NCBI GenBank assembly: GCA_039182125.1
Contig: JBCDCH010000034.1
Span: 1 to 40,407 of the forward strand
Direction of reading: 5' to 3'
DNA from: Planctomycetota bacterium
Lineage (GTDB): Bacteria > Planctomycetota > Phycisphaerae > Tepidisphaerales > Tepidisphaeraceae
DNA length: 40,407 nucleotides
In this document: positions 16,591-21,388 of the stretch, piece by piece
Layout of the letters: each line of letters opens with the position of its first letter
How positions within the stretch are numbered: the stretch's first letter is position 1
Notes under the pieces: model-generated
What the model saw: the letters and a program-made list of their open reading frames with translations, nothing else
Told to the model about the DNA's origin: nothing
Databases searched by the model: none
Program-made: the position numbers and the translations under genes

Positions 16591-16643
16591 TCGTTGGGCA
16601 AGGTCGGTCGAGCCGGGGCGGCTCGATCGTTTGCTCTGCGTCC

Positions 16644-16761
16644 CTTATCCACCCTGCTGGCCTCCCAGCAGGCGGGGCTTGGCACCCTTCCGGTCACGCG
16701 GTGCGTGGTCGGTGGTTGCCGTGGTTTCGACGGGCCCGCGCCCTCCACCACTCTCGATAAG
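16644..16761 (-). promoter_or_regulatory. SAM-I (S-box) riboswitch aptamer
   Basis: The minus strand carries the conserved S-box core in order. It has the 5' P1 strand CTTATC (complement of 16756-16761), GAGAG followed by TGGTGGAGGG, GGGCCC (16732-16737), GGCAACC (16714-16720), GGGTGCCAAG (around 16678-16687), a P4 hairpin with arms at 16653-16660 and 16665-16672, and the closing P1 strand GATAAG (16644-16649). It lies upstream of the ThrC-like, secreted-protein and sulfur-carrier genes. Binding of S-adenosylmethionine should stabilise P1 and allow the downstream terminator to form, shutting the operon when methionine is plentiful. Confidence 0.93.
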
Positions 16762-16895
16762 TTCGCGCCGAAGCGGCTTGGTTGTGAGTACACGATAGCC
16801 GGGCCGGCGTTTCGATCAAGAAATCGGCGTCGAGGCGTGATTGGCCGCACTTTTGCAGATTCGCGGGCACCGTGACTCTGTTATCTTCACCACCC

Positions 16896-20472: not shown

Positions 20473-20527
20473 GTCGCCAACTGCCAGCGGAAGACGGATC
20501 GAACGGCAGGGAGTAATCGAGGAGGCC

Positions 20528-20560
20528 ATGACTCGGGGCGACCCGCTCCGCCAGCCATGA
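20528..20560 (+). CDS. 10-codon upstream ORF overlapping the start of the membrane-protein gene
   Basis: The ORF encodes MTRGDPLRQP. It has the best Shine-Dalgarno of the region (GAGGAGG ending just before the ATG), whereas the main gene has none of its own. Its TGA overlaps the next ATG as ATGA, so ribosomes ending here could restart on the 73-codon gene. Its GAGGAGG is also the ideal target of the CCUCCUCC motifs encoded downstream on the same transcript, which would allow autoregulation. This is an inference from sequence only. Confidence 0.4.
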   Translation: MTRGDPLRQP

Positions 20561-20778
20561 CCACCGAAACAATCAAACGACTGTGCGTGCTCCTCGTGAG
20601 CCTTCTTATCGCAGGTTTTGTGCTTTGGAAAGGGCATTACGCGATTCCGCTCGGCTCCGCCGAGCAACCTGCGGAACGCGGATGGGAAATCTTGCCGGTG
20701 ATGACATCGTTGTTCGCACTGATGCTCACACTCACCGGACTTTCCTTCTTCGCTCGCGACCCTGACTTCAGCGAGTAG
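20557..20778 (+). CDS. Small two-helix membrane protein upstream of the hairpin array
   Basis: I do not recognise this 73-residue protein. It has two membrane helices, residues 8-24 (RLCVLLVSLLIAGFVLW region) and 47-66 (LPVMTSLFALMLTLTGLSFF), joined by a short polar loop (KGHYAIPLGSAEQPAERGW) and ending ARDPDFSE. The ATG at 20557 starts the hydrophobic part; longer frames add a polar tail with no good start. It overlaps the stop of a 10-codon ORF, and the first anti-SD hairpin unit begins 13 bases after its stop. A small ORF leading an array of CUCCUC-type RNAs resembles the ccaF1-CcsR operon of Rhodobacter, although the proteins are unrelated. It may be mainly a carrier for the RNAs. Confidence 0.6.
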   Translation: MTTETIKRLCVLLVSLLIAGFVLWKGHYAIPLGSAEQPAERGWEILPVMTSLFALMLTLTGLSFFARDPDFSE

Positions 20779-20790
20779 AACGACAAGCGA

Positions 20791-20842
20791 ACCTCCTCCG
20801 CAAAGCCGGGGTACCTCCTCCTCAGCCCCGGCTTTCTAAAAT
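20791..20842 (+). repeat. Anti-SD hairpin unit 1 (type A)
   Basis: The leader ACCTCCTCCGC is followed by stem AAAGCCGGGG / CCCCGGCTTT (20802-20811 with 20826-20835) around loop TACCTCCTCCTCAG. The tail is CTAAAAT, with no T tract. Confidence 0.85.
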
Positions 20843-20875
20843 ACGATCCCCTGCCGTTTGGGAAGGCGGTTGGGG

Positions 20876-20900
20876 CACCCGCGAGACCCGCGGGTGTTTT
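20876..20900 (+). terminator. Hairpin with short T tract between units 1 and 2
   Basis: CACCCGCG / CGCGGGTG with a 5-base loop is followed by TTTT. It is the only spacer with a terminator-like hairpin, and this spacer is also the longest (129 bases from unit to unit against 91-96). It may give partial termination, so that unit 1 is more abundant than units 2-5, or it may mark a processing site. Confidence 0.5.
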
Positions 20901-20919
20901 GAGAAATGTCTCCGAAGAG

Positions 20920-20975
20920 ACCTCCTCCGCAAGGCGGCCGACTTCCTCCTCCTCGGTCGGCCGCCTTCCAAAAAT
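20920..20975 (+). repeat. Anti-SD hairpin unit 2 (type B)
   Basis: The leader ACCTCCTCCGC is followed by a perfect 12-pair stem AAGGCGGCCGAC / GTCGGCCGCCTT (20931-20942 with 20956-20967) and loop TTCCTCCTCCTCG. The tail is CCAAAAAT. A small hairpin GTCTC-CGAA-GAGAC (20908-20921) abuts the leader. Confidence 0.85.
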
Positions 20976-21010
20976 CAGCCCGAAAGGGTGGCGGACCATC
21001 AGGTTGAAAG

Positions 21011-21064
21011 ACCTCCTCCGCAAGGCCGGGGATACCTCCTCCTCAGTCTCCGGCCTTCTAAAAC
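21011..21064 (+). repeat. Anti-SD hairpin unit 3 (type A)
   Basis: The stem AAGGCCGGGGA / TCTCCGGCCTT (21022-21032 with 21047-21057) is kept by one G-U pair in place of G-C. The loop TACCTCCTCCTCAG is identical to units 1 and 5, and the tail is CTAAAAC. Confidence 0.85.
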
Positions 21065-21102
21065 TCGAGCACCGCAAGGTGCCGCGGATTTCGGTTCAAC
21101 GA

Positions 21103-21157
21103 ACCTCCTCCGCAAAGCGGCCGGCTTCCTCCTCCTCGGCCGGCCGCTTTCCAAAAC
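21103..21157 (+). repeat. Anti-SD hairpin unit 4 (type B)
   Basis: A perfect 12-pair stem AAAGCGGCCGGC / GCCGGCCGCTTT (21114-21125 with 21139-21150) holds loop TTCCTCCTCCTCG, identical to unit 2. A small hairpin GGTTC-AAC-GAACC runs into the leader, and GCACC-GCAA-GGTGC lies in the spacer before it. Confidence 0.85.
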
Positions 21158-21198
21158 ACAGGTGCCCGAGGGCGAGCACCATGGCGTGTCCATCCCGG

Positions 21199-21254
21199 AC
21201 CTCCTCCGCAAGCGGGCGACCTACCTCCTCCTCAGGGTCGCCCGCTTCTTTTTT
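21199..21254 (+). terminator. Anti-SD hairpin unit 5 (type A), which is also the array terminator
   Basis: A perfect 12-pair stem AAGCGGGCGACC / GGTCGCCCGCTT (21210-21221 with 21236-21247) holds loop TACCTCCTCCTCAG and is followed by CTTTTTT. It is an intrinsic terminator and sets the transcribed strand of the array. Confidence 0.88.

Positions 21255-21315: not shown

Positions 21316-21388
<73 letters not shown>

Follow-up and report, generated by a model that had tools for sequence, protein, structure and literature searches.

Within the window, by which we mean the whole 40,407-nucleotide stretch of DNA that was analysed, five units occupy positions 20791–21254 of the plus strand, with starts at 20791, 20920, 21011, 21103 and 21199 and unit-to-unit spacings of 129, 91, 92 and 96. 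When folded singly, every unit consists of an unpaired ACCUCCUCCGC followed by a hairpin that holds CCUCCUCCUC in a loop of 11–12 nt. The single strand and the hairpin lie, respectively, at 20791–20801 and 20802–20835 in unit 1 (20791–20835; 11 pairs), at 20920–20930 and 20931–20967 in unit 2 (20920–20967; 13 pairs), at 21011–21021 and 21022–21057 in unit 3 (21011–21057; 12 pairs), at 21103–21113 and 21114–21150 in unit 4 (21103–21150; 13 pairs), and at 21199–21209 and 21210–21247 in unit 5 (21199–21254; 13 pairs), where a U-run extends to 21254. An earlier, sequence-only reading had described a five-unit array that exposes an anti-Shine-Dalgarno (anti-SD) motif both as a single strand and in a loop, which the sequence and the single-unit folds bear out; it was also right about a G–U replacement in unit 3 (GGGGA/UCUCC), while the stems that it put at 10–12 pairs are present but computed at 11–13.

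The anti-SD segments are nearly identical across the five units and the stems differ. The folding energy of the array lies 7.0 standard deviations below that of dinucleotide shuffles, none of which (0 of 100) was as stable, and the pattern CCTCCTCCGCAA-N8-18-CCTCCTCCT occurs in the 4.1-Mb genome at these five sites only (reversed control, 0). A U-run follows the last unit alone (TTCTTTTTT) and is the probable, predicted terminator of the entire transcript; units 1–4 end in TTYYAAAA. The spacers (within 20836–21198, plus strand) contain short hairpins, with an AAAA stretch directly 3′ of each preceding unit, as judged by folding of the array and by the sequence. These A-rich spacers are possible processing sites, processing itself being inferred. 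In the spacer between units 1 and 2, TTTT follows the hairpin CACCCGCG..CGCGGGTG (20866–20896, plus strand); this resembles a terminator and might allow unit 1 to be released on its own. A tRNA-Ala gene lies downstream of the array, at 21316. Elsewhere in the window there is a SAM riboswitch (16642–16763, minus strand; 74.3 bits).

Upstream of the array on the plus strand, an SD-like GAGGAGG (20519–20525) precedes a 10-codon upstream ORF (20528–20560), both read from the sequence (translation not shown). The stop codon of this ORF overlaps the start of a 73-residue ORF (20557–20778, plus strand) with two hydrophobic stretches, which ends 12 nt before unit 1. Pairing between the leader GAGGAGG and the array motif comprises 7 bp, with a computed energy of −13.7 kcal/mol. 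No Pfam family matched the 73-residue ORF at its cut-off; the best hit, PepSY_TM, was sub-threshold (E 0.14), and the ORF is not DUF1127. Homologues sought in relatives were not convincing, and the ORF is not conserved alongside the units. A promoter scan before the array found no sigma-70-like promoter, and individual promoters, rated with a crude sigma-70 score, mostly did not exceed shuffles.

The 3′ end of the genome's own 16S gene is intact and reads GGATCACCTCCTTTCT, and the array motif therefore matches the anti-SD core, as had been supposed from the sequence alone. The 16S gene itself is found in several pieces over two contigs (G000:C40:12-1124 and G000:C31:40966-41574), possibly because of an assembly break. 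GGAGG-N4-9-ATG occurs 519 times in the genome and 170 times in the reversed control; for GGAGGAGG-N2-10-ATG the counts are 16 and 2. Since the 16S end reads as above and GGAGG stands before ATG at three times the control frequency, SD-dependent initiation is in use.

Recurrence and covariation of the unit

We searched for related units with two covariance models. The first, R1, derives from 14 units, comprises only 8 pairs and was used to search 397 genomes of the class; the second, R2, was built from 35 single-copy units at other loci and included no unit of the array. R2 nevertheless recovers all five units of the window, at 22.4, 23.9, 25.5, 23.1 and 26.8 bits for units 1 to 5 (E 2.7e-4, 1.1e-4, 4.2e-5, 1.7e-4 and 2e-5), the next match in the window having an E-value of 0.16. 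Because no array unit went into the model, this amounts to an independent confirmation of the array.

Strong R1 matches fall in two families of the class: the window's own (f1), with 1–7 copies per genome and with R2 matches in 18 of its 26 genomes, and f5, where at least 18 genomes have matches in the class-wide R1 search, mostly one copy each. The hairpin recurs in dozens of related genomes with compensatory base changes. The sequence-only reading would have been refuted by a lack of homologous hairpins in related genomes; the covariance search found them, with a conserved anti-SD motif on covarying stems. A pattern search of 60 relatives turned up a second array, in genome G012, and, in further genomes, single units. 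By sequence reading, the G012 array also has five units behind a small two-helix membrane ORF; arrays were found in these two genomes, both times in this arrangement. The layout of the G012 ORF is weakly similar to that of the 73-residue ORF (1% of shuffles score as high), and BLASTP found no match between the two.

Most genomes hold one copy or a few dispersed copies, and single-copy units mostly end in a U-run terminator of their own; the window's genome has a sixth, single unit on contig 53 (L160). Single units, each with a terminator, are the commoner form, from which the array is probably derived. Class-wide R1 matches with E-values of 1e-5 to 1e-2 are a mixture: some appear genuine, namely weaker look-alikes in families f16, f18 and f20 that share the unit plan, and many are chance. 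Outside the class, a phylum-wide R2 search gave three weak matches, none convincing by eye. The exact pattern also matched 100 stretches of unrelated named genomes, and the ones examined proved to be coding repeats or coincidence.

Covariation was evaluated on an alignment of the 35 single-copy sequences (11 pairs), with 500 shuffles and with slid pairing partners as controls. In this alignment 98.2% of the stem cells are paired, and two-sided changes are seen in 10 of the 11 pairs (62 cells), a result reached by none of the 500 shuffles; when the partners are slid by 1–3 columns, pairing falls to 33–52%. Stem bases that change while pairing is kept had been taken as a sign of selected structure in the array, and the relatives bear this out. 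The single-stranded block CCUCCUCCGCC (UCCUCCUCCGCC) is invariant in the alignment, with an abrupt onset of conservation some 10 nt before it, and the loop is less conserved. The single-copy relatives, with one hairpin each, mostly have the loop ACCCUCC, and the window loops hold CCUCCUCCUC. The stems vary freely and CCUCCUCCGCC does not, which singles out the anti-SD motif as the target of selection. The earlier claim of a displayed anti-SD motif stands in substance, except that the most conserved part of the unit is the single strand and not the loop. Copies in f20 and on a phage contig keep the single-stranded motif and have a loop without CCUCC; the loop is therefore not essential everywhere.

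The family plan is a single-stranded CCUCCUCCGC, a covarying hairpin and a U-run at the last unit, which the window fits by the R2 search. In the single-copy relatives, G–U cells outnumber A–C cells on the plus strand (8 versus 2), and it is on that strand that U-runs come after the stem, for which reason we take the plus strand to be the RNA. As far as comparative sequence evidence goes, the hairpin represents a real RNA family that recurs with compensatory changes.

Comparison with known anti-SD RNAs

No curated family of Rfam 15 matches the array in the window at its cut-off. The best sub-threshold match is the alphaproteobacterial ar14 (RF02344), at 31.3 bits (E 7e-4) across units 2–3 against a cut-off of 58.8; the single-copy relatives L130 and L160 do not match ar14 at all. 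A close parallel in design is the CcsR1–4/CIN1 locus (Rhodobacter sphaeroides, RF02791), which, according to PMC8625941 and PMC10253847, consists of tandem homologous sRNAs with CCUCC-type motifs behind a small protein gene, in one transcript with one Rho-independent terminator; RNase E is there described as releasing CcsR1–4 from the ccaF1 transcript, in whose 3′ part they lie. The window likewise has its copies in tandem after a small ORF, with a single terminator for all of them, and to this extent the CcsR-like architecture suggested for it holds; the ORF, by contrast, is not DUF1127 in the Pfam scan but a predicted two-helix membrane protein. RF02791 scores only 20.2, 17.7 and 14.4 bits in the window, far below its cut-off of 65.3; for this reason and for the absence of DUF1127, the array is not a member of the CcsR family. 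An RpoH-type promoter and RNase E processing also belong to the CcsR pattern, and the one promoter scan of the array's upstream region, of sigma-70 type, gave no promoter. The array also differs from CcsR in having single-copy relatives in two families of one class, and in that its most conserved part is a single strand and not a loop.

The cuckoo RNAs of Rhizobiales (SmelA075, SmelA099) resemble the window in carrying several hairpins with anti-SD loops and variable stems; according to PMC3927594, where the CCUCCUCCC loops are described as anti-SD, each RNA has three or four CCUCCUCCC hairpins, whereas each unit of the window has one hairpin plus the single-stranded CCUCCUCCGCC. What the array shares with CcsR, ar14 and cuckoo RNAs is design, as the sequence-only reading had proposed for the CcsR operon. 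Convergence is the simplest reading of the likeness to CcsR and cuckoo RNAs, although remote common descent is not excluded. Based on the Rfam result and on the absence of a comparable family for this group from searchable papers, the RNA family is apparently undescribed. If the class is Phycisphaerae (Planctomycetota), as is inferred, this would suggest that anti-SD sRNA arrays arose at least twice in bacteria.

Proposed action of the array

We propose that the array encodes five sRNAs from one plus-strand transcript that act in trans by masking SD sequences, a reading that we consider reasonably probable but far from settled, as transcription, cutting, pairing in trans and repression are all inferred. 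The transcript would start upstream of the small membrane-protein ORF and end at the U-run of unit 5, with RNA polymerase reading through the internal hairpins, as is expected of hairpins without U-runs, and would then probably be cut in the A-rich spacers. Each unit displays an imitation of the 16S anti-SD twice, as a single strand and in the hairpin loop, and should pair with mRNAs at ribosome-binding sites of the type GGAGG(AGG), excluding ribosomes; a fivefold copy number would raise the dose. In the absence of expression, target or processing data, the likeliest mechanism is inferred to be repression of translation in trans by several processed sRNAs. Pairing of the motif with SD sites, such as GGAGGAGG before rplD, has computed energies of −17 to −22 kcal/mol. 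Several points count against the proposal: the scan before the array gave no sigma-70-like promoter, full complementarity between the motif and an SD ahead of a plausible start codon is limited to few genes (rplD and a few others), no conserved target has been established, and some relatives lack CCUCC in the loop. Specificity is in question because the 8-nt CCUCCUCC could find partners among a great many SDs. The family, with its clear covariation, clear strand and testable pairing rule, offers a direct route to asking how specificity is reached by an RNA that copies the ribosome's tail.

With GAGGAGG in the leader of the small ORF, feedback in cis is also possible, and the units might be 3′-UTR modules: terminators or stability elements whose anti-SD pairs with the SD of their own mRNA and feeds back on that gene. 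The start of the array just past the small ORF fits this, as do six genomes of f1 in which the unit starts 40–66 nt past the stop codon of a CBM48 gene. Many single copies, however, have no obvious coding gene immediately upstream, the anti-SD block is retained after upstream elements of very different kinds, and also in a phage contig, and five copies exceed the need of one site in cis; we regard such a module as unlikely, without dismissing it. Repeated, identical, exposed motifs are also typical of protein sponges, and the C-rich loops and single strands of the plus strand could titrate an RNA-binding protein (e.g. of cold-shock type, or small and membrane-anchored), base-pairing being secondary. 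That both arrays lie behind small ORFs is compatible with a decoy of this kind, and CcaF1, encoded before CcsR, is RNA-binding according to PMC10253847. Against it, the motif is the exact anti-SD core shared with 16S, one or a few dispersed copies in most genomes do not make a sponge dose, and the small ORF does not travel with the units, which makes a decoy improbable.

Were the minus strand active, the array could be a CsrB-like sponge that binds CsrA through GGA in its hairpin loops (GAGGAGGAGG) and linkers; on the complement, each loop and each linker does contain GGA, and a CsrA is encoded in the genome. The excess of G–U over A–C cells on the plus strand (the latter being G–U on the minus strand) and the U-runs 3′ of the stems on the plus strand in most relatives speak against this, and we give it very little weight. 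Least credible of all is that the array is no RNA gene but a coding sequence, a simple CCT repeat or a DNA repeat: two plus-strand frames are open through it and the exact-pattern matches in unrelated genomes are coding coincidences, but the unit spacings break the frame, the stems covary across 35 sequences, and most relatives are single units with a terminator at their end. Repression in trans by plus-strand sRNAs remains our preferred reading.

Genomic settings of the unit and a second element

In 15 genomes, including the window's own, a gene related to the CBM48 gene lies divergently upstream of a unit. A second RNA-like element, a near-invariant GAGCGCGGTTGGTTCCC that is followed by a long hairpin rich in GC, often with a U-run, was found at L331 (G000:C23:25040-25055, plus strand) and at 24 other sites, in 17 genomes of the family. 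At many of these sites GAGCGCGGTTGGTTCCC has an ATG in front and could encode the short peptide MERGWFPR. This GAGCGCGGUUGGUUCCC / GAGCGCGG element lies 87–189 nt upstream of an anti-SD unit in 11 loci. By eye, it mostly lacks a U-run where it precedes a unit, and often has one where it stands alone; the combination follows the logic of the array, in that internal hairpins have no U-run and the last one keeps it. The phage contig (IMGVR_UViG_3300047169_000098) bears one unit (L284:12646-12700, minus strand; R2 45.5 bits) in which the CCTCGTTTCCTCCTCCGCCA block is conserved and the hairpin loop lacks CCUCC, and also encodes a terminase and a CI-like repressor.

We tentatively suggest that the unit is a portable anti-SD terminator cassette of one class, placed at the 3′ ends of CBM48 mRNAs, on the RNA of the GAGCGCGGUUGGUUCCC element, in arrays and in phage, a view that we hold as possible without yet leaning towards it. 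If true, it would imply a lineage-wide network of translation control with an origin independent of the alphaproteobacterial CcsR and cuckoo RNAs. In six genomes of f20 (L278–L283) we observed a related plan, CACCCTCCTCCGAAAGGCC followed by a hairpin and in most cases by a U-run; in three of the six, a phosphatidylserine-synthase-like gene follows at a distance of several hundred bases.
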